This document shows positions 10,736 to 38,095 of a DNA stretch of 43,994 nucleotides, one piece after another. Both the position numbers and the translations under genes were made by a program. A model generated the notes under the pieces. It did not search any database. It had not been told where the DNA came from and was given only the letters and a program-made list of their open reading frames with translations. This stretch comes from Bacteroidota bacterium (GTDB lineage Bacteria > Bacteroidota > Bacteroidia > B-17B0 > Aurantibacillaceae), in the NCBI GenBank assembly GCA_030681615.1, contig JAUXSA010000173.1, forward strand, positions 1 to 43,994. The letters are read 5' to 3'. The first letter of the stretch is position 1. Each line of letters starts with the position of its first letter.

Positions 10736-12001
10736 TTAGGTTTTTTGTTTCTTCTTTTTTGCTGCCGGAAACAAAATATTATTCAGGATCAATCTATAAC
10801 CGGGCGAGTTTGGATGTAACGACAGGTCTGTTGGCGGCTCCTCCACCCTGTGCTCATAATCTTCGGGATCATGGCCTGCGTAAAAGGTCCAGGTGCCTTT
10901 ACCAATATCGCCATGTATATAACGCGCTTCGCCAAATGCTTTTGCCTCGCCCATAATTAATACATTCTTTTTAATATATTTTTTATCAAAGGCAGCTGTT
11001 TGTCCCCAAAAACCTTGTATTGTGTTTGTGTGGTTTTGACAAAGCATAGTTGGCACAGGATCCCACTTAGCAGAGAACTCAAACAACGTAAAGAGATCTG
11101 TTTTTTGTGTCATGCCAAAATTCCGACGTGTTAAATAGGTGTCAATAGTTGAGTACTCGTACTCGTAAGGATTTTCTTTTAATTTATAATTCTCGAAAGC
11201 AAATCCTTTTGAAAAATCTAATTTTGATTGTGCATTTTTATCTGCAGGATCGTGATCGAACATACTCTCGCAAATATCAACTCCTTCTGCAGCCAATGCA
11301 ATATCATAACTGTCGGTAGCGCTGCACATGGCAAACAAAAAGCCACCACTAAAAACAAAATCTTTTATTTTTTTTGCTGAGTTTAATTTCATTAAAGACA
11401 CTTTTGCGAAACCTAATTTTTTTGCAAGCGCTTCATTTTCTTTTACCTCGTTTTGATACCAGGCCGCGTTTTGAAACTGCGAATAAAATTTACCGTATTG
11501 GCCCGTAAAATCTTCGTGGTGTAAGTGCAGCCAATCGTAATCCTTTAATTTTTCAAGAAAAATTTCTTCGTCATAAACAATATCGTAAGGTATTTCGGCA
11601 TACTTTAAAACCAGTGTTACGGCATCGTCCCATGGTTGTTTACCTTTTGGCGAATACACGGCAATGCGCGGTGCTTTTTCTAATTTAATAGCATCTTGAT
11701 TTGCTTCAGGGTTTGCAATTTCGGCAAGAATAGAATTTCCCTGCGCGTCGGAAATAGTTTCGTAGCTAATGCCTCTTATTACACATTCGTTAGAAACTGG
11801 TTTTGCATTAGGGATCATAAAACTGCCACCGCGATAATTTAACAACCAATGTATCTCTAACTCGCCCTTTAAAGCCCAATACGCAAGGCCATATGCTTTT
11901 AAATGATTCTTTTGCTCTTCATCCATCGGGATTAGAATATAAGCCGCAAACGAACGGCTAACAAAAAAAAATGCAAAAAATATGATGAAAATTCTTTTCA
12001 T
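10736..12001 (-). CDS. Periplasmic protein of the family named 'asparagine synthetase B-like'
   Basis: This 421-residue exported protein has a signal peptide (MKRIFIIFFAFFFVSRSFA) followed by AYILIPMDEEQKNHLKAYGLAYWAL, the hallmark of a Bacteroidota family that databases often label asparagine synthetase B. I see neither an N-terminal Cys glutaminase nor an ATP-pyrophosphatase loop. It has instead a central segment GGFLFAMCSATDSYDIALAAEGVD that resembles ThuA/class-I-glutaminase-like folds, and a late HGDIGKGTWTFYAGHDPEDY. The enzymatic label is probably wrong and the function is unknown. It is co-directional with the lipoprotein and YwqK-repeat genes upstream. Confidence 0.7.
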   Translation of the reverse strand: MKRIFIIFFAFFFVSRSFAAYILIPMDEEQKNHLKAYGLAYWALKGELEIHWLLNYRGGSFMIPNAKPVSNECVIRGISYETISDAQGNSILAEIANPEANQDAIKLEKAPRIAVYSPKGKQPWDDAVTLVLKYAEIPYDIVYDEEIFLEKLKDYDWLHLHHEDFTGQYGKFYSQFQNAAWYQNEVKENEALAKKLGFAKVSLMKLNSAKKIKDFVFSGGFLFAMCSATDSYDIALAAEGVDICESMFDHDPADKNAQSKLDFSKGFAFENYKLKENPYEYEYSTIDTYLTRRNFGMTQKTDLFTLFEFSAKWDPVPTMLCQNHTNTIQGFWGQTAAFDKKYIKKNVLIMGEAKAFGEARYIHGDIGKGTWTFYAGHDPEDYEHRVEEPPTDLSLHPNSPGYRLILNNILFPAAKKKKQKT

Positions 12002-12072
12002 TAATGAATACTAATTTAAGAATAATTGAAGGAGTAACGGAATGATTTTTGGGAAAAAAAGTTAAAAGCAAA

Positions 12073-12903
12073 TTAAGCGCCCGCGATAAGTTTATTCCTT
12101 AAAGCAGTAATCTTTTCCTTAATGGTTTTAATGGTCTCAAGGTTTTGAACAGTGTTGGCCTCGGCCACTTCAAAGGCATCCCTTATAGATTTAAGATCGG
12201 CGATAATGAATTTTGTACCATCTGTTAAGTTAGAAGCTTCTAACATAATAATGATATTCTTTAGCGACTCGTTTTGATCGATTATTGTTTTGATTATTTT
12301 TTCGCCGTTGGCAGTTTCTGCTATCTGGCACGAAACATACATTCCCTCAACCCACGAACCGGTAAGGATAACAGCAGAGGTAGCTGGACGATTATTTACT
12401 TTTAAGATCTCATCTGCTTTTTTAAATGCGGCAGTAATAATTTCCAAAGTAGAATCTTTATTCTCGCGGTTAGCTTCCATCCTGTCAAACATGGCCTGGT
12501 CAAAAGCATTATTAACACCAATGTTTGCTGCTAAAGAGTTAACGCATTTTAAGAAAACCATACTTTCCTGAGTTTGATCAAACGAGTTGGCAATACTTAG
12601 GTCAGAACCATAGATACCAAGGTTAGCAGCTTTATAGAACTCTACAGTATATTTTGAAACAGAGTTTGGATCGTTTAAAAAATCAGGATTGTAGTCAATT
12701 TTATTATCCTCAATTAATTTTAAAATTAATTTTCTATCTGGCATTGAGTTAAATACATTTTGTGCATTTAATTTTGTTTCCTGAACGGCTTGCTTTGTGT
12801 TATCATCAATCACAAGATTTTCATCCTGTTTTTCGCCATTCTTGCAAAAGGTGAAAGAAAATGCAAAAACCACTAAAATTATTTTAAAACTGATCCTGGT
12901 CAT
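12073..12903 (-). CDS. Lipoprotein of unknown function
   Basis: This 276-residue protein has a signal peptide ending in a lipobox-like FTFC with Cys20, then a mostly alpha-helical body (SMPDRKLILKLIEDNKIDYN; YGSDLSIANSFDQTQESMVFLKCVNSLAANIGV; VILTGSWVEGMYVSCQ). I recognise no domain with confidence. It follows the YwqK-repeat gene by 37 nt and precedes the asparagine-synthetase-like gene by 71 nt, all on the minus strand, so the three may be cotranscribed. Confidence 0.75.
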   Translation of the reverse strand: MTRISFKIILVVFAFSFTFCKNGEKQDENLVIDDNTKQAVQETKLNAQNVFNSMPDRKLILKLIEDNKIDYNPDFLNDPNSVSKYTVEFYKAANLGIYGSDLSIANSFDQTQESMVFLKCVNSLAANIGVNNAFDQAMFDRMEANRENKDSTLEIITAAFKKADEILKVNNRPATSAVILTGSWVEGMYVSCQIAETANGEKIIKTIIDQNESLKNIIIMLEASNLTDGTKFIIADLKSIRDAFEVAEANTVQNLETIKTIKEKITALRNKLIAGA

Positions 12904-12940
12904 AAATTGTACTTCACAAATATAACAAAAAAAATTCCAA

Positions 12941-14695
12941 TTACTTTTTTACCCCGTTTTCATAGGTTATTCTATTGATTTCTTTACCGCTTTTATCATA
13001 GAAAACCCATAAACCGTGAGGCACGCTTTGCACTTTGCCTTTTCTTCTATCATTCACAATTTTATAATTACACTCGCTTTGCAGTTTGGCATTTGTATAA
13101 TACGAAACGCTTTTGCCGCTTAGCTTTCCATTTTTAAAATGCTGAATACGATTAATGCCGCCGGTCTCGTAAAAATAAGTCCATGAGCCATGTTGATGTC
13201 CTTTTCGATACTTGCCTTTTGTATCAACAAAGCTTCCCCTCTCAAACCATTGGATATAGTTCCCATGTTTTATACCGTTTACATACGAACAGGTTTCACG
13301 CGGTTGACCATTTTCGTAAAAATAATCCCATTTTCCTGTTTTTTTACCTTTACTGTTATAACTTCCGGCATAGTTGGGCTTGCCATTAGTATACCAACCC
13401 TGCCAATCGTCTACTAACTGCGCGTCTTTAAAGCTGCCCTCGTCTTTTTTGGTGCCATTATCCCACCAACTCGTCCATAAACCATTTTCTTTACCGCCAA
13501 CAAAGGGGCCTTCCTGCAATTTTTTGCCATTTTCGAACCAGGTGGTCCAAACGCCAGTCTTTAAGCCAGTATCGTAATTTCCCTGGCGCCATTTTTCTCC
13601 TGTGCGGTAAAAATAGTTCCAGGTTGCGGTTTGTTTATCGTTCAAATAATAACCTTCACTTTCAACTTTTCCATTAGAGTAATAGTAGGTCCATTTGTCT
13701 TCTCTTAGATCATCCTTCAAAGTGCCCGCCATTTCAAGCTGCCCCTCGCTTGTATAAAATTTCCAGAGACCATTTTTCTTGTTATTTATAAAATTTCCTT
13801 CGCTTTTTATTTTATGATTTTGAAAATAAGATGAATAATACCCATTCAATGCTCCTCCTTCATAAGTGGCTTCATAATCCAACTCGCCATTGGCGTGAAA
13901 AAAACGCCAAACGTCATCTTGCAAACCGCCTTTATAAAAACCCATTGCTTTAACAACGCCGTTATCATAGTTAGCGGTAATGCTTCCATTGCCGTTGGTT
14001 ACCAACTGTTTACCTTTACTATCCCAAAGATCGGTAAGGTAAAGTATACTATCTTTATATTCTTTTACAAATTTCTTCTGGCCGTTATCGTAGTACTCTT
14101 CCCATATGTTGCAGGGCTTACCGGCACAATAATATTGAATGGCTAATAGCTTACCCGTTTTAGTATAGGTTTCAACTTTACCCTGGCGTTTATCTTTTTC
14201 AAAATTACCTTTACTTTCCAGCTGACCATTATCAAAATAGTAGGTCCACTCCCCTTCTTTCTTTCCTTTTTCAAAAGGCTCGCGGCTTTTAACCTTTCCG
14301 TTCTCATAAAAAGATGTCCACGTACTATCGGCGATGTTATCTATAAATTTTGTTAGCTGCGAGATCTTACCGGATTTAAAATAATACACGTTGGTACCAT
14401 TTTTCTTGCCATTATCGTAGTGCTCAACTGCTTTTTTGGTCCCATTCTCGTAATAGAATGTCCAGATACTATCTTCTTTTCCTAAAAAATGGCTGAGCTT
14501 GCCCGAATAATAATAACCTTTTGACAATACGTTGCCACTTGGATAATACTCGGTGTATGCGCCGTAGGGCACACCTTTGTAATAATCGGTCTCAGATTTT
14601 AACTGGGTTTCTTTAGCATCGTAATACTCTTTTTTAAGTTGAGAGGAGATGGTAAAACTGGAAACAAAAAGGAAAATAAAGGCTAAAAATCTCAT
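12941..14695 (-). CDS. Exported YwqK/MORN_2 repeat protein
   Basis: This 584-residue protein has an N-terminal signal peptide (MRFLAFIFLFVSSFTISS). Almost its whole length is about 22-24-residue repeats of the MORN_2/YwqK type, with pattern G-x-W-x-x-Y-Y-x-N-G-[KQ]-x-x-x-E-G-x-[FY]. Examples are GEWTYYFDNGQLESKGNFEK and GVWTTWFENGKKLQEGPF. I count roughly twenty units. Automatic pipelines call such proteins 'toxin-antitoxin system YwqK family antitoxin', but nothing here indicates a toxin partner. Periplasmic or surface scaffolding is more likely. Confidence 0.85.
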   Translation of the reverse strand: MRFLAFIFLFVSSFTISSQLKKEYYDAKETQLKSETDYYKGVPYGAYTEYYPSGNVLSKGYYYSGKLSHFLGKEDSIWTFYYENGTKKAVEHYDNGKKNGTNVYYFKSGKISQLTKFIDNIADSTWTSFYENGKVKSREPFEKGKKEGEWTYYFDNGQLESKGNFEKDKRQGKVETYTKTGKLLAIQYYCAGKPCNIWEEYYDNGQKKFVKEYKDSILYLTDLWDSKGKQLVTNGNGSITANYDNGVVKAMGFYKGGLQDDVWRFFHANGELDYEATYEGGALNGYYSSYFQNHKIKSEGNFINNKKNGLWKFYTSEGQLEMAGTLKDDLREDKWTYYYSNGKVESEGYYLNDKQTATWNYFYRTGEKWRQGNYDTGLKTGVWTTWFENGKKLQEGPFVGGKENGLWTSWWDNGTKKDEGSFKDAQLVDDWQGWYTNGKPNYAGSYNSKGKKTGKWDYFYENGQPRETCSYVNGIKHGNYIQWFERGSFVDTKGKYRKGHQHGSWTYFYETGGINRIQHFKNGKLSGKSVSYYTNAKLQSECNYKIVNDRRKGKVQSVPHGLWVFYDKSGKEINRITYENGVKK

Positions 14696-27239: not shown

Positions 27240-29093
27240 ATGAAATTTTTATACAGCAGTTTATTTATTGTATCATTTTTAGTTTCCGGCATAGCGCAGG
27301 AAACCGCAACCAAAAAAACTTCCTTTACTTTTCAAAGGCAGGCAGTAGTTAATTATAATAGCGCGCAACCAGACTACAGCCCTAAATTAATGCTTCGCGA
27401 GATGCCAAAACAAAGATCCGAGAAAATGGAGATCTATAATTATCCTGCAAATTATAAGATGGGCCAGGCCAATACGGCTGCTATCCTGCCAACGCTTTCT
27501 ATCGGACAAAACTTTGTGGCTAACCCATGGGGTTTAAGTACACCTAATGATAACGACATGGCTATTTCAAATAGCGGCATGTTAGTTTCTGTAATAAACA
27601 CCAATATTTTTGTAAGAAATACGGTTACAAATGTTAACTCGCCCATTAAATCTTTAGCTGCATTTACAACGCCTATTAACAGCCTGCACCAGGAGTTCGA
27701 CCCTAAAGTAATGTACGATCCGTTAAAAGACCGTTTTGTTTTGGTGTGTTTGGTGGGCTTTGTAGATACTACCAGTAAAATAATTGTTGGCTTCTCGCAA
27801 ACCAACGATCCTTCGGGTGCCTGGAATTTATATGCCCTACCCGGCAATCCTTTAAATAATAATTTGTGGTCAGATTATCCAATGATAAGCATGACGGATA
27901 AAGAATTATTTTTAACCGTTAATCTTCTTTACAACAATCAACCATGGCAAACAGGTTTTAACGAAACCTTAATTTGGCAAATGAAAAAAGACAGTGGTTA
28001 TGCAGGCTTGCCTTTAGGTTCAGTTTTACACTCCAACATTAAATTTAATAATAAGCCTATTCGTAATTTATGTCCTGTAAAAGGTGGAAGCCAATTATAC
28101 GGGCCAAACATGTATTTTATTTCTAACCGTAACCTGGCATCGCAAAACGACACTGTTTTTTTAGTGAATGTTACCGATACTATTGGCGCGCCAACAGGCA
28201 CTGTAACCACCAAAGCATTAATTTCAAATCAACCTTATTCTTTACCCGTAGATGGCAGACAAACCAACACGGTGCAAACATTAGCTACAAATGATTGCCG
28301 TAACCTGGGCGCTTTTTTAGAAAATGGTAAGATACAATATGTACACAATACTAATAACCCGGTTAATAACCGGCCAACTATTTATTATGGTGTAATAAAC
28401 AACCCCGCGGCCGTTAGTCCAACCGTAACAGGTTATGTTATTTTTAACGATACTATGGATTTTGCTTACCCTAATATTTCGTACGCCGGAAATTCTGCAA
28501 CAGATAATACGTCTATTTTTACGTTTAATCATAGCTCTAATAAAGTATTTGGCGGCACCTCTGCTATAAGAGCCGATGCGCTGGGCGATTTCTCGCCGGT
28601 GTTACGTATACAGAACGGCACTACTTATGTAAACATGTTAGCAGCCACACAAGAAAGATGGGGCGATTATTCAGGTTCGCAACGCAGGTATAACGATCCG
28701 GGTAAAGTTTGGATGAGTGGTTACAATATGTATTTCTACAGCGGCTCATACCCTTTTGCGCACAGGGCATGGGTAACCGAGTTGGGTTTAAGTCCTTTTA
28801 TAGTTACTGGCATTAAGCACGAAACAAAACCGAGCGAAGTTACAGCCAACGTTTTTCCAAATCCTGCAAAAGATATTTTTAGTGTTGAGCTAAATTTAGC
28901 ACAGCCCGAATATTTAAGTTTTGAATTGTACGACCAACAGGGTAAATTAATTACAACCCTGTTGCGCGATTGGGTTAAGGTAACACAAAACACCTTTAGC
29001 TTTAGCACACAAGCATTAAGCAAAGGCCTTTACCTTTTAAAAATAAAAGGAAATTATAATACGGCTATTACGAAAAAGGTAGTGGTGGAATAA
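27240..29093 (+). CDS. T9SS-exported protein, probable beta-propeller
   Basis: This 617-residue protein has a signal peptide (MKFLYSSLFIVSFLVSGIAQ). A large beta-rich region has a string seen in Bacteroidota exoproteins (FDPKVMYDPLKDRFVLVCL, GFSQTNDPSGAWNLYALPG, NLWSDYPMISMTDKELFLT, ERWGDYSGSQRRYNDPG). A C-terminal T9SS type A domain starts near residue 540 (VFPNPAKDIFSVEL, ending TKKVVVE). No catalytic motif is recognised and the function is unknown. It lies immediately left of the accessory segment and is separated from it by a strong imperfect palindrome. Confidence 0.8.
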   Translation: MKFLYSSLFIVSFLVSGIAQETATKKTSFTFQRQAVVNYNSAQPDYSPKLMLREMPKQRSEKMEIYNYPANYKMGQANTAAILPTLSIGQNFVANPWGLSTPNDNDMAISNSGMLVSVINTNIFVRNTVTNVNSPIKSLAAFTTPINSLHQEFDPKVMYDPLKDRFVLVCLVGFVDTTSKIIVGFSQTNDPSGAWNLYALPGNPLNNNLWSDYPMISMTDKELFLTVNLLYNNQPWQTGFNETLIWQMKKDSGYAGLPLGSVLHSNIKFNNKPIRNLCPVKGGSQLYGPNMYFISNRNLASQNDTVFLVNVTDTIGAPTGTVTTKALISNQPYSLPVDGRQTNTVQTLATNDCRNLGAFLENGKIQYVHNTNNPVNNRPTIYYGVINNPAAVSPTVTGYVIFNDTMDFAYPNISYAGNSATDNTSIFTFNHSSNKVFGGTSAIRADALGDFSPVLRIQNGTTYVNMLAATQERWGDYSGSQRRYNDPGKVWMSGYNMYFYSGSYPFAHRAWVTELGLSPFIVTGIKHETKPSEVTANVFPNPAKDIFSVELNLAQPEYLSFELYDQQGKLITTLLRDWVKVTQNTFSFSTQALSKGLYLLKIKGNYNTAITKKVVVE

Positions 29094-29107
29094 TTTTTTG
29101 TTTGCTT

Positions 29108-29143
29108 AATATTTGGGTCGACGTGACGCGAACCCATAATATT
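29108..29143. other. Bulged 36-nt palindrome at left edge of accessory segment
   Basis: The left half is AATATT-TGGGT-CG-A-CGT and the right half ACG-CG-A-ACCCA-T-AATATT. This folds into a nearly continuous stem with three single-base bulges and a one-base loop. It is more GC-rich in the core than the surroundings. It lies between the convergent 617-aa exoprotein gene and the AAA ATPase gene. It may be a bidirectional terminator or the end of an inserted segment. Confidence 0.5.
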
Positions 29144-29151
29144 GGCTGTGT

Positions 29152-31521
29152 TTACGCAGTCGAGACTTCAACACCAATACTTAACAGCAGCGCCTCATAT
29201 TGTTCATGGTCCTTTTCCTTGATTTTATCCAACATAAATGTTGCTGTTTTTTTCATTTCAGGTATGTCAATTGGAGTCATACTTCTTTCGAATAAACCCT
29301 CTAAATGCGAAAATTCATTGTTAATTCGGTCTGTCATTGTAGAAGCCTGTCTGTTATCGCCAAAAAACTTTGTTAGTTTTTCAATTTGGTTCGTTGCATT
29401 TGGATATTTGTAATATAGAAATGCTTCTAGGAATTTTCGTGTGTTGTTCCCAAAGTTATAAAACAAACTATGATGACTCTCCTCATCTACGTCAGCAGTT
29501 GAACACATATAAATTTGATGGAAAAGAAAATTAAATTCTGTTACATAATCTTTCAAATACTTTGGCATTATTCTAATTCTGCTATTTTCCTTTTCTCTAG
29601 AAATCAAAAAATAATTGCTCAGATTTTTGTTTGATGCTCCAGGTAAACGTTTCAAATATTTGAGAAAATCAAGATTATGAGTAGAAATGAATATTTGTTC
29701 AAACTCCAGTTTCGAAATAATTTCGGCGTTGATAAGACTATAAACGAAAAAAATATGGTTGCTGTCTAAGCTTGAAATTGGGTCGTCAATCCAAATGATA
29801 GGTTTACTCCCCTTAGTTTCAACATCTTCAAGTTTAGCCATGAAATAACAAAATGCAATCAGACTACATTCGCCTTCACTTAGATGATGAGCTTTCTTTC
29901 CATTTCTAACAATTTCAAACCTTATTTTTTTATCAGTTTCTTCCAATGCTTGCAATGTTAGAAAGTCATGTCCGAAAAAATTATTTAGGTATTCATTTAC
30001 TTTCAACGCTCCTTTTTCTTCATCTTTCATCAAGCGTTCTTTGTCTTCAATCTGAATAATTTGCTGATGTATCTTGCGCTCTACCGCTTCTTTATTCAGC
30101 GTTTCAGTGTTAGAAGAGTCTTTTAAAGTTTGAATTCTTGCAGTTACGTTTGAGTATTGTATTGTTTTTACAAAATCACTGACTTCTTGTAATCGTAATA
30201 GTTTTTTTGCTTCGGTTTGTTCGTTTCCTAATGAATTGCTGTAATCGTTCGCTTGGACTCGGAAGTTTTCAAATGTTGTCCAACATTCCTCAAGTTGTTT
30301 GCTATTGTCTTTGATATCAGTATACAGCTTGGAACTTAATGGGTCATCTTTTCGTTCTTGAAGACTTACTCTAACACGATCTAATTCTGATTTTATACTT
30401 TCAATTGTTTGTTTCCTTTGCAAAATTAAAACATCTAAATCTGAATGAAATTTTGAATAAAAAGCACTTTTGTTTATTTGTAATTGTGTGTCAATATTGC
30501 GAATTACAGTTTCAGTTTCTGTAATCACCGCTTCAATTTCCTTTTCCAGTTTTTCAGATTCTTCGTCAAAATGGCTATCAAGTTTTTTCCAACGCTCTTC
30601 GGAAATATCGTTACCACAAAATGAACATTTTTCAATCTTGTTCTTGTGTATTTGCCGCCCTTCTTTTACCCAACGGTTGAGAATAGAATCTCTTAATAGC
30701 TGCTCAATTTTGTTGGAACTACTAATTGATTTAGTAACAAGGTTTTTTGCTTTTGTATTAAGATTGTTTAAATCTAAAATTGGTTTTATAATTCCGGGAA
30801 TATCTGCATTAGCTTTTTCCTTAAGTAAATTAAGTTTTTGTGTTATTTCATCATCTGTCAATGGTTGAAATGAAGTCTCTAATACAGCAGTAATATCGTT
30901 TTGCAATTTACTTATGTTATAGTTCTGGTCGCCAAATTTTTCAGACTTGTACTTTATACCATCTGGATTATTTGTCGCTTTAAACTTTAATTGTTGATCT
31001 AAACTGTTGTTTTCCGTTTGATACGTTTGTAGAGCATTACTCGCAATCGATTTAGCGTTTTTTAATTCAAGATAAAATCCACTTTCACTTCCTTCTTCGT
31101 TATTTCCCAAATCATTTTTTAGTGTTTGTATTTCTGCTTCAATATTTGCATTACCTCCAATTATCGCAAAAGGCGTAATGCTTTCGTCTGAATTAACAAT
31201 GAATCGTAAATTATCTTTTACAAAGTCTTCGTTAAATACTCTTATTTTTTTGCCGTGTGTGTTTAAACTGTTTTGCGTGGAGTCAGCACCATCTTTAATG
31301 CTAACTTCAAATTGTGGATTTTCATATTTGTCGGATATGTTGCCTAATTCTAATGCTCTAACTATTCGAGAAAGAGTTGTTTTGCCCGAATAATTTCGCC
31401 CATAAAAAATATTAATTGACTTAAATAATATTACATTGTTTCCTTCATCACGGATAGTCGTGTCCCAGATGAAATTTTTGAAAACGGCAAGATTATTTAT
31501 GGATTTGAATTTTGTAATCAT
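29152..31521 (-). CDS. AAA_13 / RloC-PrrC-like ABC ATPase with CxxC zinc-hook motif
   Basis: This 789-residue protein has a split ABC-type ATPase. Walker A is GRNYSGKTT (41-49), the signature is LSEGE (547-551), Walker B is IIWIDDP (575-581) and the switch His is H615 (STHNLD). Residues about 130-520 are coiled coil. Near the middle is C299-S-F-C302-G, a Rad50-like zinc-hook motif as known in the RloC anticodon nuclease. After the ATPase, R695-x3-E699 and H739 resemble the PrrC/RloC R-E-H nuclease triad, with a slightly longer spacing to His than I recall for PrrC. A tRNA-cleaving or other abortive defence role is an inference. It lies 51 nt downstream of the GHKL gene. Confidence 0.85.
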   Translation of the reverse strand: MITKFKSINNLAVFKNFIWDTTIRDEGNNVILFKSINIFYGRNYSGKTTLSRIVRALELGNISDKYENPQFEVSIKDGADSTQNSLNTHGKKIRVFNEDFVKDNLRFIVNSDESITPFAIIGGNANIEAEIQTLKNDLGNNEEGSESGFYLELKNAKSIASNALQTYQTENNSLDQQLKFKATNNPDGIKYKSEKFGDQNYNISKLQNDITAVLETSFQPLTDDEITQKLNLLKEKANADIPGIIKPILDLNNLNTKAKNLVTKSISSSNKIEQLLRDSILNRWVKEGRQIHKNKIEKCSFCGNDISEERWKKLDSHFDEESEKLEKEIEAVITETETVIRNIDTQLQINKSAFYSKFHSDLDVLILQRKQTIESIKSELDRVRVSLQERKDDPLSSKLYTDIKDNSKQLEECWTTFENFRVQANDYSNSLGNEQTEAKKLLRLQEVSDFVKTIQYSNVTARIQTLKDSSNTETLNKEAVERKIHQQIIQIEDKERLMKDEEKGALKVNEYLNNFFGHDFLTLQALEETDKKIRFEIVRNGKKAHHLSEGECSLIAFCYFMAKLEDVETKGSKPIIWIDDPISSLDSNHIFFVYSLINAEIISKLEFEQIFISTHNLDFLKYLKRLPGASNKNLSNYFLISREKENSRIRIMPKYLKDYVTEFNFLFHQIYMCSTADVDEESHHSLFYNFGNNTRKFLEAFLYYKYPNATNQIEKLTKFFGDNRQASTMTDRINNEFSHLEGLFERSMTPIDIPEMKKTATFMLDKIKEKDHEQYEALLLSIGVEVSTA

Positions 31522-31572
31522 TGTTTTCTTTTATTGATTTGACGGGGTTTATAATTGCCCAGTGTTATTTCT

Positions 31573-32958
31573 TTATTTGTCCAGTATTTGTCTACACAGG
31601 TCACCAATGCTCTCTGTTAGTGAGCTTTCAAACGCTCTCGTAACGTCGTCATAACCTGTCTTTGCGTGAATTAATTCATGAATTAAAGTGCCAGAATATT
31701 CTTCAACATTCTTTAAGGTCTTACGCGACAAAACAACTGAATTGGTCTTTTCATCCCAACACCCAAGAGTTTCGACATCGGCAAAAAAGTCTTTTCTCAT
31801 TGTTGATGATATTTTTATCGCTTTTACTTTTTTTGGTTGTCCGCCGAAAAGCTCAATGATTTTCGGAGTTAATTTATAAATAGCTTTTTCTTTTTCATTT
31901 AATTTATCTGGTTCGATAAAAGTAAAATCAAAACTGTCATTATAGATTGATACAAATTGTCCTATGTCAACTATGGGATTGCCGGCCAAGTCTTTTAATC
32001 CTTGAATTTTATATTTTAAGTTGTCTGGAATGGTGATTATTTCATGCCCACTATTTTTTGCTTGGTCAATCATGTCGGGATGGTGCATTGCTTCAGAGGA
32101 AGTAACAAACAAGTATTTTCCTTTTTGATTTAATATTTTTACAGAGTGTTCTTGCACGTCAATCCAGGTTAACTCGTCATGTGCAGTACCAAGAGTAATA
32201 TTTGTTAAGTCCTTTGCAAGGATTTCTGCAACTTCTTTTGTCTTGCAGGAGAGTAAGATCTTCTTTATCGAGTCGGTGTATGCACTACGACCAACATTTG
32301 TCCTTTCTCTATTCAATGCTTTTTTAATAGATGCCGTCAACGCGGTAATATTGTAACTGAAAAGAAAATTTTCTTCTTCAGCAACTTTCACGCCATTTAT
32401 ATAAATGTTACCGCAATTACCAATTCGTTTAACGACCTGTCCTTGTTTTGTGGTTTCGCTGACAGTTTCGCCAGAAAACTTTAGAAATAATTTCTTCGCT
32501 TCCTCAACATCTTTGTCTGTAACACCAGTTAGTTCAAATTCGGTCCCGATGAATTCACTGTCTGTTGGCTCGCCAATTATTGCGTGTAGAGTAATGATGT
32601 CTTTAAACCCTTCCTTTGCTGATTTGATTATAGTTATTTTGCTGTGTTTCGAATTAGCTGTAACTATAATTCCTTTTCTGTCAAATGTTGCTAAAGCGTC
32701 CTTTAAGCCAATGCCGAATTTGCCAATAACATTTGGGTTCATCAGCTTTTCCTGGTTTTCATTCTGTGTTAAATGCGTATATTTTATCCCACGTCCGAAA
32801 TCGCGTACAAACCATGATTTACCATGTTTGTAAATTTCAACCTCCTTAGTCTTAGTCATTATTTGTTCGTCTAAGGCATTTGCGATAATTTCTCTGATAG
32901 CATGATGTGTCTCCCAGTTCTCGAGAATTTTCTCAATGTTTAAGTCAAATTTTTTCAT
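31573..32958 (-). CDS. GHKL ATPase fused to HExxH metallopeptidase-like domain
   Basis: This protein is 461 residues from ATG 32958 (MKKFDLNIEK). ATG 32973 and TTG 33012 are longer alternatives. The N-terminal half has a complete Bergerat ATP site: N-box E23-IIA-N27-ALDE, G1 D53-F-G-R-G57, and G2 IGKFGIGLKDAL (78-89), as in Hsp90, MutL and MORC proteins. A middle segment (residues ~130-230, ending RERTNVGRSAYTD) looks like an S5-type transducer domain. The C-terminus carries H427-E-L-I-H431 with E444 (RAFESSLTESIGD) as a possible third zinc ligand. I recall similar unnamed 'ATP-binding proteins', but no characterised function. It heads the two-gene operon with the zinc-hook ATPase. Confidence 0.85.
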   Translation of the reverse strand: MKKFDLNIEKILENWETHHAIREIIANALDEQIMTKTKEVEIYKHGKSWFVRDFGRGIKYTHLTQNENQEKLMNPNVIGKFGIGLKDALATFDRKGIIVTANSKHSKITIIKSAKEGFKDIITLHAIIGEPTDSEFIGTEFELTGVTDKDVEEAKKLFLKFSGETVSETTKQGQVVKRIGNCGNIYINGVKVAEEENFLFSYNITALTASIKKALNRERTNVGRSAYTDSIKKILLSCKTKEVAEILAKDLTNITLGTAHDELTWIDVQEHSVKILNQKGKYLFVTSSEAMHHPDMIDQAKNSGHEIITIPDNLKYKIQGLKDLAGNPIVDIGQFVSIYNDSFDFTFIEPDKLNEKEKAIYKLTPKIIELFGGQPKKVKAIKISSTMRKDFFADVETLGCWDEKTNSVVLSRKTLKNVEEYSGTLIHELIHAKTGYDDVTRAFESSLTESIGDLCRQILDK

Positions 32959-33055
32959 CTTGTCTGCCGTCATAGCATTAAAATAACCATTGGATTGACG
33001 GACTTTATCCAAATAGAAATAATTATAAAAGTTTTTTGTTTCCTTATACTATGAT

Positions 33056-33063
33056 CAAATATA
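33056..33063 (-). promoter_or_regulatory. -7 element of the GHKL/zinc-hook operon
   Basis: On the minus strand the sequence reads TATATTTG, an exact TAnnTTTG match. It predicts a transcript start near 33050 and a leader of about 75-90 nt to the ATG starts. A perfect palindrome occupies the place of its -33 box. Confidence 0.5.
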
Positions 33064-33084
33064 TAACAATTTACTTACCAAACC

Positions 33085-33104
33085 ACCTACTGCTAGCAGT
33101 AGGT
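33085..33104. promoter_or_regulatory. Perfect 20-bp palindrome (operator candidate 1)
   Basis: ACCTACTGCT followed by its exact reverse complement AGCAGTAGGT. It begins 22 bp upstream of the -7 element and overlaps the expected -33 box, a standard repressor position. As RNA it would form a hairpin, but no T run follows, so a terminator is less likely. Confidence 0.5.
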
Positions 33105-33128
33105 AAAATTCAAGTTTTAACATATCAA

Positions 33129-33148
33129 AATAGGTAATATTACCTATT
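33129..33148. promoter_or_regulatory. Perfect 20-bp palindrome (operator candidate 2)
   Basis: AATAGGTAAT followed by its exact reverse complement ATTACCTATT. Its centre is 44 bp from that of the first palindrome, about four helical turns. It shares the TAGGT half-site with the first palindrome, in everted order. A third TAGGTAA occurs at 33179-33185. Confidence 0.5.
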
Positions 33149-33227
33149 GCATGGCACATAAACATTTCATAATCTTGATAGGTAAAAGCTATTAAACTTT
33201 AAAGAATAAAAAGGCCAATTGTTACTA

Positions 33228-33473
33228 TCATTTAAAATTTGGAATCGTAACACCTTCAATATATTTTTCTAATCTTTCGCCTTGCTTAAAAGGTACAATA
33301 TCAATTATTTTTTCATTTGGTTTACTAACAATTACTTCTACGAAGAAATTATCCAAAAAATATAGATTTATACCTTGATTATTAGAGAGAGTATTTTCTA
33401 AAAAAATTCCTTTATCCCAAAGCATATCTGCTTTAGAATTAATGTCAAGTTTTATAAACTCGTATATAGTCAT
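33228..33473 (-). CDS. Small protein of unknown function
   Basis: This 81-residue protein (MTIYEFIKLDINSKADMLWDKGIFL...) has a compact alpha/beta pattern: a helix around KADMLWDKG, strands INLYFLDNFFVEVIV and EKIIDIVPFKQGERLEKYI. It resembles small uncharacterised Bacteroidota proteins starting T-x-x-EF-x-L that I recall from accessory regions. No TM, helix-turn-helix or catalytic motif is visible. It is co-directional with the GHKL/zinc-hook operon and separated from it by the palindromic promoter region, so it is probably a separate transcript. Confidence 0.7.
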   Translation of the reverse strand: MTIYEFIKLDINSKADMLWDKGIFLENTLSNNQGINLYFLDNFFVEVIVSKPNEKIIDIVPFKQGERLEKYIEGVTIPNFK

Positions 33474-33591
33474 TTCAAATCTATAATTGAGGATAAGAAC
33501 CGAAACACAACTTTAAAAAGTGTAACCAGTAAATCCTGATAATTCTTGCGTAAGTATTTTTCTTTTTTTTGATAAGCAGAAATTAAATATT

Positions 33592-33607
33592 AAATATAGC
33601 TATATTT
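33592..33607. repeat. 16-bp palindrome before the transposase gene
   Basis: AAATATAG followed by its reverse complement CTATATTT, 23 nt before the transposase ATG. It could be a transposase-binding site, an operator, or chance in very AT-rich DNA. Confidence 0.3.
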
Positions 33608-33630
33608 CCTATAAAAAGGAAAAACAAATT

Positions 33631-34911
33631 ATGGTTATTCGAACTTATGATTTCCGCTTAAAACTTGATGCCATAAACGGCAGACTACCAAGTAAATTTA
33701 AAAATATAGTTAATGACAAAATGCTGTCTGCATGGAGGAAAGTAAAGTGGGACAGTCTGATTGGATTTGATTATTATAATAAGCAGGAGAAAAATATAAG
33801 AAAACTAAACTCGGAGATTGATACATTAAAAGAATCTGCAAAGGAAACTTTGAAAGAAATAAAGGCCGAGAATGAAGTTTTATTGCTTGCAATAAAAATT
33901 GCATCAAGTGGTAACGAATATCGAAGATTAATATATGAGAATAGAAATGAAATTATTGATTTTGTTGAAAAAAATAAAAAAGCAATTGGAGTTAAAAGAA
34001 GTTCTCAATTACTAAATATTAGCAATATGACATACTACGAGTGGAAATCAAAGGCAAAAGATGATTGTCAACACTCTAGTAGACTTACTTGTATTAAAAG
34101 ATCTCCAAATCAAATTACGTTGGAAGAAGAGTTTAAAATTCTCCAATTACTTCAAGATCCAAGGTATGACCACTTTCCTGTTAGCTCTTTGGTTTGGAAA
34201 GCTCGCTATGAGAATATTGTTCACGCAGGAAGGACAAGTTGGCGTAGACTTCAAAGACGATACAAAGTTGTTAGATTAAAACCAAAGAAAAGAAAAAGAT
34301 ATTATTCGAAATCACTAAAAGCAGAATATGCGAATCAATATCTCCATGCGGATATAACATACTTTAAACTAAAAAATGGTGATACCTATTATATCTATCT
34401 TGTAAAAGATAATTATTCAAAATACATTAAATCTTGGGAAATTTCCAATAAAATTAATGCCGATACACGCATTAAAACATTTCAGCATTCGCTCTCGGAT
34501 ATCGATGATAACTCAAGTATGAAAGTGTCTTTCATTACAGATTCTGGGACCGAAAATAAAAACAGTAAAGTCAAAAATTTCTTTAAGCCATTTAAAAATG
34601 TAGATATTAAATATGCAAAAAAGGATATCGCGTTTTCCAACTCCATGATAGAAAGGTATAACATGGATTTAAAGTATATGTACCTTTATAGAGAAAATAT
34701 TTACACACTAAAAGCATTAATCACGGCTGTTCGTTTTGCAATAAAAGAACATAATTATATTAAACGGATGGAGTGTATAAATGGGCAAACCCCCTATGAA
34801 CTTTATAATGGGTTGCCCTCAAAAATTGAATGGATTAATGAACAAAAAAAACAAGCAAAAGAAAATCGATGTAAGAAAGTTAAGAATACAATTTGCTGCA
34901 AACTTCGATAA
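33631..34911 (+). CDS. DDE (rve-type) transposase
   Basis: This 426-residue protein has a coiled/HTH N-terminal part (helix about 47-90, then IGVKRSSQLLNISNMTYYEWK, HTH-like). An rve integrase core follows, with catalytic Asp in LHADITYFK, Asp in FITDSGTENK, and Glu in SNSMIERYNMDLKYM, about 36 residues after the second Asp. It resembles IS3/IS481-type single-ORF transposases of Bacteroidota. The frame is intact, so the element may be active. I could not find terminal inverted repeats by eye within about 150 bp on either side. Confidence 0.88.
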   Translation: MVIRTYDFRLKLDAINGRLPSKFKNIVNDKMLSAWRKVKWDSLIGFDYYNKQEKNIRKLNSEIDTLKESAKETLKEIKAENEVLLLAIKIASSGNEYRRLIYENRNEIIDFVEKNKKAIGVKRSSQLLNISNMTYYEWKSKAKDDCQHSSRLTCIKRSPNQITLEEEFKILQLLQDPRYDHFPVSSLVWKARYENIVHAGRTSWRRLQRRYKVVRLKPKKRKRYYSKSLKAEYANQYLHADITYFKLKNGDTYYIYLVKDNYSKYIKSWEISNKINADTRIKTFQHSLSDIDDNSSMKVSFITDSGTENKNSKVKNFFKPFKNVDIKYAKKDIAFSNSMIERYNMDLKYMYLYRENIYTLKALITAVRFAIKEHNYIKRMECINGQTPYELYNGLPSKIEWINEQKKQAKENRCKKVKNTICCKLR

Positions 34912-34913
34912 AA

Positions 34914-34973
34914 GCTGTAATGTACAATGGCAACGAAAGCATTATTAGTGATGCGGTAAAAGTGGAGTATTAA
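34914..34973 (+). pseudogene. Possible 3' remnant of a disrupted gene
   Basis: Directly after the transposase stop, another frame reads AVMYNGNESIISDAVKVEY and then TAA. The peptide has normal composition, unlike random AT-rich translation, and no start codon fits it. It may be the tail of a gene cut by the transposon. Short length keeps this tentative. Confidence 0.3.
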
Positions 34974-35015
34974 ACAAACAGATAAAACAATTATTACTTC
35001 TAATATTAAAAAAAC

Positions 35016-35050
35016 AAAAACCCGTTTCGGTTATACCGAAACGGGTTTTT
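35016..35050. terminator. Strong bidirectional intrinsic terminator
   Basis: A perfect 16-bp stem (AAAAACCCGTTTCGGT and ACCGAAACGGGTTTTT) has a 3-nt loop and A/T runs on both flanks. It ends the minus-strand S74 gene (stop at 35070) and can stop transcripts arriving from the transposase side. It is a natural right boundary of the accessory segment. Confidence 0.9.
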
Positions 35051-35069
35051 AATTAAGAAGTAAATAGCT

Positions 35070-36076
35070 TTAATTCTGTTTTATTAATTTTTTAGTATCT
35101 ATTACTTTTCCATCAACAATTAAATAATAGCTGTATAAACCATTGGTAAGATCGTTTGCGTAAACATTAATTTGACCTTTGCCTTTTTGGTTAACATCCA
35201 CCGCTTTAATAATACGACCATCCATAGTATTAAAAATAATTTGGGCCACTTTAAAATCAACCGGAATATTGTAAGTAATAATTGTACTCTCAGCAAAGGG
35301 GTTGGGCACGTTTTGATTTAAAACAATTACATTTTTATCGCTTAGCTCTATATTAACTTGGTTACCAATAATTCCTGTAGTGCGAACATCAGAGTTTGAA
35401 CAGCAGCTAGCAACGTTTTGTGTTAAAACCTGAATTAACGAATCCTGCTTTTTATTTTGTTCTGTTAATTGTTGCACCGCACGTATTAAAATAGGAATAA
35501 GTTGAGTGTATTCTAAACCTTTAAAGTTAACTGCAGGCGTTATTACGTTTCCTAAACTATCGAATTTTGCGGGATTTATGTTGTTAGTTACTAAAGCAGG
35601 AATAACAGTTTGAACATCCTGTGCAATTAACCCATATTGTAAGCCTTGCGGCAAACTCATACTTGGATATTGTGTTAACTTATAATCAAAGGTCTTAGGT
35701 TTTAGAAGATTTATTGTAGCCAACGCGTTTGAAATTGTGTCAATATTTTGTTTCAATGCAAGATCACTTGCAAACCCAAAAGCGCCATTTACATAAACAT
35801 CGCCATTAAAATAACCCGCGTAGTTTGCGGGTGATGTTAATGACTGTGGTGCATAACCATAAACCGCATAATTTGTATTTAAAGAACCGTCAGCCTCTCC
35901 ATAAACGCCAAAGTGTGTAACATCTTCGTTAGCTATCATTGACGAACCCCACAAGCCAAAAGAATAGCCTGGACCGCCATTAGAAAGCAACCATGTATTT
36001 GAACCGTTTTGTCCCCTAACTACACTGATGTTGGAAAAATTACAACTAACGAAAGAAAAATTAAGGTTTTTTTCAT
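35070..36076 (-). CDS. S74-chaperone exoprotein with T9SS-like tail, frameshifted signal peptide
   Basis: The ATG at 36076 starts a good signal peptide (MKKTLIFLSLVVIF) that runs into a TAG at 36022-36020. The +1 frame from there is open to 35070 and encodes the mature protein (NISVVRGQNGSNTWLLSNGG...). One extra T in the run at 36035-36039 would join them. The mature part has VYGEADGS repeats, then an intramolecular chaperone domain of Peptidase S74 type (SDLALKQNIDTISNALATIN, with the Ser/Lys of the SDxxxK motif; GLIAQDVQTVIP). A C-terminal T9SS-type domain follows (VPNPFAESTIITYN). Without the repair, the longest frame begins at TTG 35990 and lacks a signal peptide. Confidence 0.75.
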
Positions 36077-36087
36077 ATGATTATTTT

Positions 36088-37029
36088 TTAATGATTGATA
36101 ATTATTTTATAATGTTTGTTTTTTGTTTCAATAAAATATACTCCAGGTAGCCAATCAATAGAGTGGATAACACAACCGTTGCCTTTAATATCAGTTTTTA
36201 CATCAATTAAATTACCATAGCCGTTAAAAACCTTTATGTCATTTTTTGTTGCTTCCCCGACAACAAAAAAATCATTTGCAGGGTTAGGATATAATAACGG
36301 TTTGCTTTTATTGTTTTCATATTTATTAATTCCTGTAATGTAATTGGCAGCATAAGTTGAATCTGTACTTACACATACCTCGTCAATATAATAATATGAA
36401 ATACTGCCAGTACCATGATTTAATACTGTGGTATTTACATCGTCAAAAAAATTACCAATCATAAGATAACTGTAAGTAGAATCAGCAATAAAAGAGCCTG
36501 ATATTTTTGTCCAACTAATAGTATCTGTAATTACTGTATTACTATAATAGTGTGCCGTATTATTAATAGATACCCAGTTTTGCTTTATCTTACTAAACTT
36601 TATCCCTAATTTATTGGTACTATATCCTACTATTAAATTGCTATCCGCACGACTTATCTTGAAAGAAATAAAATATTTTTGAGAAACTGTTAAAGATGAG
36701 GATAGCTGCCCAATAATTATTTCCCTATAAAAACTACCCGCATCATATGTAATAAGCCCAGAATAAGCATTTCCATAAGCTGGATACTGGAAGCCCAAAA
36801 GATTTTTAGGAATTTGAAAATAAGTAGTTGTTCCGCATGTATTAAAGTAATCTGCAGTTGCTCTGCATGTGTCCCAACCGGTTGCCTTATCAATATCACC
36901 GCCCTGATTAGTTGGACACGCAGTGTATGTTTCAAAAGAAGGGTTAACTACCAAATTGACCTGAGCTTTTGATGCAATGAAAAAAAGCCATAAAACTACC
37001 AAAAAATTTATTTTTTTATTTCTAAACAT
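36088..37029 (-). CDS. T9SS-exported jelly-roll protein, paralogue B
   Basis: This 313-residue protein has a signal peptide (to SKAQ, residue 22). Then VNLVVNPSFETYTACPTNQG opens a carbohydrate-binding-module-like jelly-roll (about 24-225, closing with ISYYYIDEVCVSTDS). A C-terminal T9SS type A domain follows (LLYPNPANDFFVV). No catalytic residues were recognised. It is a tandem paralogue of the gene just upstream, and its ATG overlaps that gene's stop by 8 nt. It lies 11 nt before the S74 gene start, so the three probably form one transcript. Confidence 0.8.
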   Translation of the reverse strand: MFRNKKINFLVVLWLFFIASKAQVNLVVNPSFETYTACPTNQGGDIDKATGWDTCRATADYFNTCGTTTYFQIPKNLLGFQYPAYGNAYSGLITYDAGSFYREIIIGQLSSSLTVSQKYFISFKISRADSNLIVGYSTNKLGIKFSKIKQNWVSINNTAHYYSNTVITDTISWTKISGSFIADSTYSYLMIGNFFDDVNTTVLNHGTGSISYYYIDEVCVSTDSTYAANYITGINKYENNKSKPLLYPNPANDFFVVGEATKNDIKVFNGYGNLIDVKTDIKGNGCVIHSIDWLPGVYFIETKNKHYKIIINH

Positions 37030-37999
37030 TTACGACTATTTTTTTGTGTTTTGTACTTTTTTGATTGCTTACAACTACAACATAATATCCATTTTCTAAA
37101 AACGAAACATCAATTTCCTGAAAACCCTCAAATCCCTTTTCTATTAATGTATTGCCAAAAAGATCTATTACCTTGAAAGTATATTCTCCTAATTCTTTAA
37201 TACAAATTTTTTTAACCTGAGAATCGTAATAAAAAGAAGTCTCATTAATAGAATTTTTGTTTATATCAGTTGCATAATTTTGCGTGAAAGCCGAATCTGT
37301 GCTTAAGCAAACATCATCAATAAAGTAATAGGCGTAAATACCGCCTGATTGATTAGTAATAGTAGTATTTGCATCATCAAAAAAATTACCAATCATAAGG
37401 TATTGATAGGCGGAGTCTACAATAAAGGATCCAAATATTCTTACCCAATTTAAAGTGTCAGTAACGATAGCATTATTATAAAAGTGCGCTGTATTGTTAA
37501 TGTTGACTGTGTACGATTTCATATTGGTTAATTTTACTCCTACTTTATTGGTGCTATAACCAACAAATACATTATCATTACCTCGATTAACCATAAATGA
37601 TACGAAATATTTTTGCGAAATGGATAATGGAGTTGTCAATTGAGTGCCCATTATTTCTCTTGCCAAGCCTCCGTTATAATAAGCAATTATTCCGGCGTAA
37701 GAATCCCCGTTAAATGGCAGCTGGTATCCAAACGCATTGTTTGGAACGTCAGCAGATGGGTCAGTAGAGCATTGGTTAAAATAATCAGGAGTGCCGTTAA
37801 AACTATCCCAACCTATAGCCTCATTTATTTCAGATAAACCATTTGGGCAAATCGTGTAACTTTCAAAACTTGGATTAGGTACTAAATTAATTTGCCCAAT
37901 ACAAAAATTAATTTTTACAAAAAGTAAAATTAAAAGAGGTAAATATTTTAAAGACGATTTAATGTATATCAAATATATAATAAAAATTTTAAGAAGCAA
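37022..37999 (-). CDS. T9SS-exported jelly-roll protein, paralogue A
   Basis: This protein is 325 residues from TTG 37999. TTG 37972 gives a more normal signal peptide (MIYIKSSLKYLPLLILLFVK...CIGQ), and no ATG is available. The mature part begins INLVPNPSFESYTICPNGLS and matches paralogue B in length and order: ADYFNQC/PDYFNQC, GYSTNKxGxKxxxxK, MIGNFFDD, IDDVCLSTDS. The C-terminal domain is T9SS-like but lacks the usual PNP start (YYDSQVKKICIKELGEYTFK, ending HKKIVVNV). It is the first gene of the minus-strand string leading to the S74 protein. Confidence 0.8.
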   Translation of the reverse strand: MLLKIFIIYLIYIKSSLKYLPLLILLFVKINFCIGQINLVPNPSFESYTICPNGLSEINEAIGWDSFNGTPDYFNQCSTDPSADVPNNAFGYQLPFNGDSYAGIIAYYNGGLAREIMGTQLTTPLSISQKYFVSFMVNRGNDNVFVGYSTNKVGVKLTNMKSYTVNINNTAHFYNNAIVTDTLNWVRIFGSFIVDSAYQYLMIGNFFDDANTTITNQSGGIYAYYFIDDVCLSTDSAFTQNYATDINKNSINETSFYYDSQVKKICIKELGEYTFKVIDLFGNTLIEKGFEGFQEIDVSFLENGYYVVVVSNQKSTKHKKIVVNV

Positions 38000-38095
38000 A
38001 TTTTAAAGGAATAAGTTTGTGTTAAAAGATGGTTTTAGCATCAACCGAATTTTTAACTAAATATTTTTAGAAACAACATACTCAACATTATTAAG

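Follow-up and report, generated by a model that had tools for sequence, protein, structure and literature searches.

A GHKL ATPase-protease gene and an adjoining RloC-type gene as probable independent defense genes at a variable site in a Bacteroidota genome

Two neighboring genes and their closest described systems

RloC anticodon nucleases have been described by ABC-ATPase motifs, a CxxC in a coiled-coil insert, a C-terminal R-x3-E-x36-52-H triad in which a Ser often precedes the His, and a length of 658-897 amino acids (aa) (PMC2610378), and their nuclease domain, as well as that of PrrC, belongs to the HEPN superfamily (PMC3710099). Among GHKL ATPases, VcSduA is a single-gene Vibrio cholerae defense with measured activity, in which the ATPase is hypothesized by its authors to control a C-terminal nuclease (PMC12137116), and paraMORC proteins join GHKL-S5 engines to varied tails in restriction-modification (R-M) systems (PMC2292703). 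Here, we analyzed a 43,994-nucleotide (nt) stretch of DNA (hereafter the window; contig JAUXSA010000173.1 of assembly GCA_030681615.1, Bacteroidota, Aurantibacillaceae) in which a gene that joins a GHKL ATPase to a putative zinc protease, termed the GHKL-protease, adjoins an RloC-type gene. On balance we think it probable that these are two independent mobile defense genes in one hotspot, an RloC and a stand-alone GHKL-gated protease, and that they do not form a two-component system. The GHKL-protease appears to represent an uncharacterized family, many copies of which are defense-associated, and a variant of the GHKL-plus-effector layout.

Both genes are on the minus strand, with the GHKL gene transcribed first and the ABC gene second, and they are co-directional and separated by a 51 nt spacer (31522-31572), as the sequence-only reading of the window had described. 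That reading had delimited the pair as 29152-33063, a stretch that does contain both genes but whose end at 33063 overshoots the GHKL gene. The latter spans 31573-32958 (461 aa from ATG) and, based on its frame, conserved motifs and predicted fold, would encode a GHKL ATPase, an S5/Hsp90-middle-like domain and a Wss1/SPRTN-like zinc metalloprotease. Its open frame reaches back to a TTG at 33012 (31573-33012); because relatives begin with the same MKKFDLN, the start is most likely the ATG at 32958.

The ABC gene (29152-31521, minus strand) is a predicted RloC by the published sequence description, given its Walker A (GRNYSGKT at 41), signature (LSEGE at 547) and Walker B (IIWIDDP at 575) motifs, its CxxC (CSFC at 299, between Walker A and the signature), its C-terminal triad (R695-x3-E699-x39-H739, with S738 preceding the His), and its length of 789 aa, which is inside the RloC range. 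The zinc hook was judged by the position of the CxxC. The protein matched Pfam AAA_13 at 438 bits and, over residues 1-785, the PADLOC PDC-S06 model PDLC04887 at 1032.6 bits, where we take the "S" to denote a single-gene system. Motifs, triad and PDC-S06 match thus bore out what had been read as an ABC ATPase with a CxxC hook and a PrrC/RloC-like tail. The earlier reading knew of no named system with this pair; the GHKL protein matched no PADLOC model at E 1, and the ABC gene is already catalogued alone as PDC-S06 and is, as far as its sequence tells, an ordinary RloC. PDC-S06 had already been reported as a candidate for other genomes, Streptococcus thermophilus being one example (PMC11514479). 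PrrC, which lacks a zinc-hook insert and is encoded inside a type I R-M operon, was not a fit, given the CxxC and a Pfam scan of seven window proteins (between 26544 and 35990) in which no R-M gene was found; a Pfam HEF_HK match was below its cut-off and was disregarded. In the mechanism that we propose, the ABC/zinc-hook ATPase would restrain the C-terminal HEPN-type anticodon nuclease, which would be set free upon DNA damage or phage attack.

An undescribed two-gene system had been proposed from the sequence, to be given up should homologues prove rarely adjacent, and rare adjacency is what we found. Outside the window, the GHKL-protease loci considered numbered 87 (80 genome loci, L002, L003 and five viral), 65 of them with at least 1.5 kb downstream and 54 with at least 1.5 kb on both sides. 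In only two of them was an RloC/PDC-S06-type gene no more than two genes away from the GHKL gene: L023, where it adjoins the GHKL gene 263 nt downstream with conjugation-type genes (by eye) beyond, and L064, where it is the second gene downstream. From the RloC side, where 30 loci were retrieved with the ABC protein, a GHKL relative was present within 1.5 kb in the window but in none of the other 29 loci, many of which are distant or partial relatives. Genome co-occurrence was likewise rare. Of 50 GHKL-bearing genomes (50 of the 78 submitted loci, up to 17 best first-look candidates scored per genome), two had an AAA_13 match at E 1e-20, namely that of L023 and, at another place, that of L014, versus 26 of 198 Bacteroidota genomes, among them the genome of the window (five best first-look candidates scored per genome). 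The purpose-made AAA_13 profile missed the L064 gene, and was the sole test applied to L002, L003 and the viral loci.

Based on the rare adjacency and the rare co-occurrence in genomes, neither gene appears to need the other. An obligate link was rejected on all three tests, that is, adjacency from the GHKL side, adjacency from the RloC side, and genome co-occurrence, and the suggested division of labor, in which the GHKL protein senses or holds a substrate while its peptidase activates or clears a partner, found no comparative support. Since the neighbor is an ordinary RloC, it is the GHKL-protease alone, not the pair, that should be studied. The AAA_13 gene of L023, a Paenalcaligenes locus, is split in two open reading frames (ORFs; 11788-14000), and may be broken or encode two subunits.

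Sequence, predicted fold and gene neighborhoods of the GHKL-protease

The presence of a Bergerat-fold ATP site and a C-terminal HExxH in one protein, as noted from the sequence, was confirmed by residues invariant across an alignment of 81 sequences, comprising the window's protein and 80 relatives that are 41-84% identical to it. Omitted from this alignment were L001, L004, L029, L032, L093 and L094 (the window itself, fragmentary, split or truncated), as well as L019, L022 and L065, while L005-L009 matched over short stretches only and were excluded as GHKL-protease relatives. The Bergerat motifs (32701-32895, minus strand) consist of an N box at residues 22-31, a G1 box (DxGRG) at 53-57 and a G2 box (GxFGxGLK) at 79-86; R22, E23, N27, D30, D53, G55, G57, G79, F81, G84, L85 and K86 were identical in 81/81 sequences and G82 was conserved in 80/81. 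The predicted zinc metalloprotease domain (31576-31995, minus strand) carries HELIH at residues 427-431 (31666-31680), of which H427, E428 and H431 were identical throughout, and N216, R217, E218 and R224 were also invariant.

Pfam HATPase_c_3 matched the window's protein just above its cut-off (1.1e-5), and 56 of the 81 members at E 0.01. Pfam SprT-like was found at the latter threshold in 11 members, the best value (0.00079) being that of the window's own protein, which at 19.7 versus 25.6 bits is below the family's cut-off. DUF4263 was absent from the Pfam matches of the window's protein at E 1, and from the nine Pfam families listed for the 81 members at E 0.01. Position 438, seven residues past the second zinc His, is Asp in 73/81 and His in 8/81 sequences; because an Asp/His swap is the pattern expected of a third zinc ligand, D438 is probably that ligand, with a natural exchange between the two residues. 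In SprT-like proteases, the third zinc ligand is His. The eight rows with H438, from seven Chloroflexota and one Candidatus Dormiibacterota, also carry Met instead of Glu at 444. These rows (L068, L074, L079, L080, L083, L084, L086 and L088) have the pattern HExxHx6HGxxF and form one clade.

In structural comparisons of the whole-protein model (mean predicted local distance difference test score, pLDDT, 88.0; predicted template modeling score, pTM, 0.72), the N-terminal and middle domains of the Hsp90 family held the top rank. The best Foldseek match was 8fx4 (9.4e-11, yet with a TM-score of 0.30), and the best VIA-align match was 4ivg (Z 12.7, root-mean-square deviation (rmsd) 7.6, 269 aligned, residues 7-338), followed by the ATPase regions of GyrB and MORC2 (model residues 4-259, Z about 11). 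Alignments to full-length Hsp90 extended to residue 461 only at an rmsd of about 13-16, and the GHKL family profile weakly touched the Hsp90-beta middle domain at 235-337 (E 0.013). By predicted fold only, the GHKL domain seems to be followed by an S5-fold domain.

When the protease domain was modeled alone (pLDDT 93.6), its top VIA-align match was Wss1 (5xbn; Z 8.9, rmsd 2.9, 104 aligned), then S. pombe Wss1 (5jig; 8.2), SPRTN (6mdx; 8.1) and Wss1 (5ln5; 8.0), with YbeY following at Z 7.6 and ArdC (Z 4.6) and IrrE (Z 4.3) ranking low. Hsp90 was matched by the isolated domain only at E 1.5-2.1, zinc proteases coming first, and the best PDB match of the sequence profile was Wss1, at an E of 0.084 that is not significant. 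Hence, "Wss1/SPRTN-like" is used here as a lead supported by rank, rather than as proven membership. Among viral models (BFVD), the best matches to the protein were uncharacterized phage proteins, then RIIA among others, and the window protein's scan also touched phrog_6077 and phrog_8203.

By analogy with VcSduA and paraMORC proteins, the GHKL-protease would form a dimer clamp of the Hsp90/MORC kind that shuts around a client when ATP is bound, and this closure would deliver the client to the zinc protease, Wss1/SPRTN-like, at the C-terminus. Proteins bound to DNA are what Wss1/SPRTN proteases cut, and moving or clamping DNA is what GHKL-S5 modules do in MutL-, topoisomerase- and MORC-type proteins; given these likenesses, together with the copies that reside in restriction operons (see below), the most likely clients would be proteins on invading DNA, for example anti-restriction, replication or packaging proteins. 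ATP gating, the clamp, protease activity, DNA-bound clients and a host-protective effect are all inferred. A bolder proposition, about which we are rather doubtful, is that the GHKL protein founds a new prokaryotic immune effector class, in which an ATP-driven, Hsp90/MORC-like clamp and a coupled Wss1/SPRTN-type protease strip or destroy proteins on invading DNA, and which in some genomes is a restriction add-on in the prrC slot. If true, Bergerat-fold ATPases would, like AAA+ ATPases, power regulated proteolysis.

A defense-type context held for part of the GHKL family, as seen in its R-M and Gabija neighbors and in a contrast of PADLOC matches, but not for the Chloroflexota/Dormiibacterota loci, whose neighborhood was not recognized as defense. 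For the PADLOC contrast, neighbors were taken as two genes of at least 130 aa per side within 4.5 kb, from genome loci L010-L089 only, with L065 omitted as a near-copy of L061; this gave 265 proteins, or 261 without four longer than 1300 aa, with a fragment of L029's GHKL gene, which is split, among them. The PADLOC families matched at 1e-15 numbered 148 (130 neighbor proteins) and 98 (131), versus 5 for 126 random proteins, which represents an enrichment signal only, since PADLOC counts per family and one multi-domain neighbor can add many. For the control, 20 stretches in 12 genomes supplied 179 genes, of which 130 random ones were taken, minus four long ones; a GHKL gene is present in at least two of the control genomes (G309, G400), and phyla were unmatched.

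R-M genes were found next to or near the GHKL gene on the Salinibacter plasmid pSR56 and in L081, L042 and L010, and were not recognized in many other loci. Specifically, pSR56 has the order hsdM-hsdS-GHKL-hsdR, with 51 nt between the GHKL gene and each neighbor. In L081, a type I methyltransferase is encoded upstream, alongside HsdS-like pieces and an HsdR-like start that were seen by eye, and for the HsdR-like start PADLOC gave no match at 1e-30; in L042, 687 nt separate the GHKL gene from an upstream type I restriction subunit, and in L010, an 84% identical relative, a type II methyltransferase and restriction endonuclease are directly upstream. This placement in some restriction operons makes the role of the GHKL-protease testable. 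A separate gene annotated as a SprT-family protease is located after hsdR on pSR56, downstream of the GHKL-protease (L176, 12485-13204).

We take the slot between hsdS and hsdR to be the exact prrC slot. PrrC, a suicide factor, lies within the hsdMSR neighborhood (PMC3710099), and a GHKL N-terminus with a C-terminal effector is the layout of VcSduA (PMC12137116); both would suit an abortive protease, in which the GHKL-gated enzyme, once triggered, cuts an essential host protein and thereby halts the infected cell. With no toxicity or target known, and no antitoxin-like partner conserved, we regard this explanation as unlikely.

Further defense genes occur around other copies, including gajA-gajB (Gabija), which end 125 nt upstream of the GHKL gene in L067, DrmD-like and type IIG genes near it in L038, an OLD/AriA-like ATPase encoded 42 nt further downstream in L018, a HEC-04-like ATPase upstream in L027, and PDC-S46 nearby in L073. 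A loose functional pair, in which the GHKL-protease modulates ABC/SMC-type defense ATPases (RloC, OLD/AriA-like, HEC-04, PDC-S46), for example by proteolytic activation or clearing, would find its cases in L018, L027 and L073, in GajA of L067, and in the PDC-S06-type genes that adjoin the GHKL gene (window, L023) or are second downstream (L064). These ATPases come from several families, none of them conserved, and 48 of the 50 GHKL-bearing genomes had no AAA_13 match, so that such a pair seems to us distinctly unlikely. ABC/SMC-type ATPases are common in defense islands, and their co-location with the GHKL gene is hence to be expected.

A fixed small partner gene, considered across the neighbors of 88 loci (window included), was dropped. 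Outside the Chloroflexota/Dormiibacterota loci, the recurrent gene at the GHKL start is from a 166-177 aa family without a Pfam match, which abuts or overlaps that start in L002 (2871-3404), L021 (2819-3319) and L028 (2384-2893), and is a possible subfamily-specific partner. No other locus, including that of the window, has it next to the GHKL gene, and its cluster is also represented in L004, a locus whose GHKL-side match amounts to a C-terminal fragment only.

Spread, mobility and the insertion spot

The scan of genome contigs returned 134 GHKL-protease relatives, 80 loci of which were kept, and viral contigs contributed five loci, two of them partial. Relatives were present in many bacterial and archaeal phyla, and their tree mixed phyla, with 27 label changes where the least possible is 17; such changes are not in themselves proof of transfer, and stray contigs may be present in the bins. 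The window's GHKL protein was nearest to L010, then to one Bacteroidota and one Campylobacterota copy, and the tree set around it contained ten rows from five named phyla. Within the phylum, full-length copies were found in two others of 395 genomes, its own included, and there was no match in 36 congeners. Any match was present in 14 of 398 Pseudomonadota genomes, of which three held real relatives (the center genome G396, G631, and G489 in two pieces), the remaining matches covering short stretches of GHKL or protease sequence; L017 belongs to G631 and adds no new case. The E. coli genomes had no DNA match to the GHKL gene.

This distribution bears on whether a GHKL-clamped Wss1/SPRTN relative might serve mobile-element-borne repair of DNA-protein crosslinks, with no immune role. 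Wss1 and SPRTN resolve such crosslinks (PMC5127644) and are closest to the protease domain in structure, the sequence profile match not being significant. Additionally, there is no fixed partner gene, SbcCD genes are near a Croceicoccus plasmid copy, and neighborhoods in the Chloroflexota set are non-defense. Immunity is nevertheless a better fit to the patchy spread (two others in 395 phylum genomes; 3/398 Pseudomonadota, one split) and to the PADLOC contrast (148 and 98 versus 5 families), and we assign repair a low probability.

Nine plasmid records matched the GHKL-protease, eight of which covered at least 80% of the query, one of those being distant (25.5%). The Citrobacter braakii plasmid NZ_CP136728.1 (108980-109228) matched the C-terminal 17% only, at 57.8% identity, and may hold a fragment or a stand-alone protease piece. 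Near the Natrinema plasmid copy were SIR2-family, ADP-ribosylglycohydrolase and Piwi genes, near the Halorussus copy a type I R-M system at about 4.5 kb, and near the Croceicoccus copy the SbcCD genes, while no recognizable defense gene was near the Euzebya copy or the Priestia copy, the latter in a part of its record that carries no annotation. A distant Alkaliphilus homologue, a much longer protein, had DUF262 and Cas3 genes nearby. Among 50,697 phage records, one matched, distantly (a Moorella phage).

A counter-defense or competition factor of plasmids, integrative and conjugative elements and phages, with kin in RIIA-type GHKL proteins, would degrade host defense proteins, and could be read into the nine plasmid records (one a C-terminal fragment, one distant at 25.5%), the conjugation-type genes seen by eye in L023, the five viral contigs, the distant Moorella phage copy, the BFVD matches that include uncharacterized phage proteins and RIIA, and phrog_6077 and phrog_8203. 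Copies that sit within R-M and Gabija operons or adjoin them instead point to the defense side, and only 1 of 50,697 phage records matched, such that we consider this role very unlikely.

The spot that holds the two genes is a hotspot that takes varied cargo, sometimes defense-like, as its contents differ in each of three sister genomes. In G817, which has a flank gene 97% identical to that of the window, the alignment stops at 29092 and, apart from 64 bases at 34908-34971, resumes only at 38056, and the interval between the matching flanks is taken up by two large, unrelated genes; this delimits the variable segment as 29093-38055. G804 shares the outer flanks and has other genes in the same spot, including a related transposase (80% DNA identity), while G832 matched at the left flank only, within the 19 kb taken. 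In the latter genome (L174, 6741-8978), the same spot contains a DndB-like gene together with one for a D12-class adenine methyltransferase, apparently without its start.

Within the window's segment, the DDE transposase that had been read as a neighbor of the pair was substantiated by an rve core (33631-34911, plus strand), and appears IS3/IS481-like, the IS3 and IS481 models being below cut-off. Between it and the GHKL gene is an 81-aa ORF (33228-33473, minus strand) without a convincing family match, which may not be a gene. Cargo of the type IX secretion system (T9SS), thought from the sequence to flank the segment on both sides, was clear on one side (Pfam Por_Secre_tail, 4.4e-13 in 27240-29093) but did not reach the cut-off on the other (0.043 in 35070-35990). 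Neighboring genes at 36088-37029 and 37022-37999, which overlap by 8 bases, encode secreted proteins that by eye resemble each other, and look like a tandem duplication.

Several points weigh against the reading of two independent mobile defense genes. In the genome-contig scan, 54 of the 134 relatives fell outside the examined set. Chloroflexota/Dormiibacterota loci share a syntenic neighborhood (clusters 3-8, 10, 11 and 29) that was not recognized as defense, and housekeeping neighbors were seen by eye in L003 (msrB), L022 (secretion-type genes) and L078 (a methyltransferase-like gene); based on this synteny and on the copies beside housekeeping or unknown genes, part of the GHKL-protease family may not be a defense gene. 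As for the independence of the two genes, the absence of AAA_13 from GHKL-bearing genomes partly rests on genomes of unstated completeness, and RloC/PDC-S06-type genes are near the GHKL gene in three loci (window, L023, L064), a number that may or may not exceed chance in defense islands. Finally, with respect to the protease, the likely third-ligand residue is Asp in most members, Foldseek returned nothing below E 0.001 for the isolated domain (best 0.016, archaeal selecase-type peptidases), and its VIA-align Z of 8-9 is barely above background, with Pfam SprT-like below cut-off.

Comparison with known systems

No GHKL-metalloprotease fusion in defense was found in the literature searched, which covered few subscription papers, and in the available text of the DefensePredictor paper HATPase is named in a figure legend only (PMC13092281). 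The window's ABC protein has the same ABC motifs, CxxC between them, triad, Ser and length as the RloC proteins of Geobacillus kaustophilus and Acinetobacter baylyi, with no motif difference found, whereas the pairing in the window differs, as the GHKL-protease is not a usual neighbor of RloC. PDC-S06, a candidate name, is matched by the ABC protein at near full length, and no GHKL partner was seen in PDC-S06.

The GHKL-protease and Shedu-type VcSduA have a common layout, with an N-terminal GHKL ATPase, a clamp-like middle and a C-terminal effector in one chain; the effector of VcSduA is a DUF4263 PD-(D/E)xK nuclease, whereas that of the window's protein is predicted to be a zinc protease (PMC12137116). 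MORC and paraMORC proteins are alike in GHKL and S5 domains, in patchy distribution and, for some GHKL-protease copies, in R-M neighborhoods, but their tails are nuclease, TIR or unknown, and the words "peptidase", "protease" and "metallo" are absent from the text (PMC2292703). The Hsp90 proteins TRAP1 and HtpG resemble the N-terminal ATPase and middle domain in the model, and weakly by sequence, while the C-terminal part of the GHKL-protease differs in being an HExxH zinc-protease domain. Wss1 and SPRTN are the best structural neighbors of the isolated protease domain and share its HExxH, as well as, in eight members, a His at the likely third-ligand position; the GHKL-protease differs from them by Asp at that position in 73/81 sequences and by its fusion to a GHKL ATPase. 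Regulated proteolysis is usually driven by P-loop AAA+ ATPases, and a GHKL ATPase with a zinc protease in one widespread, conserved protein would be a different engine for it.

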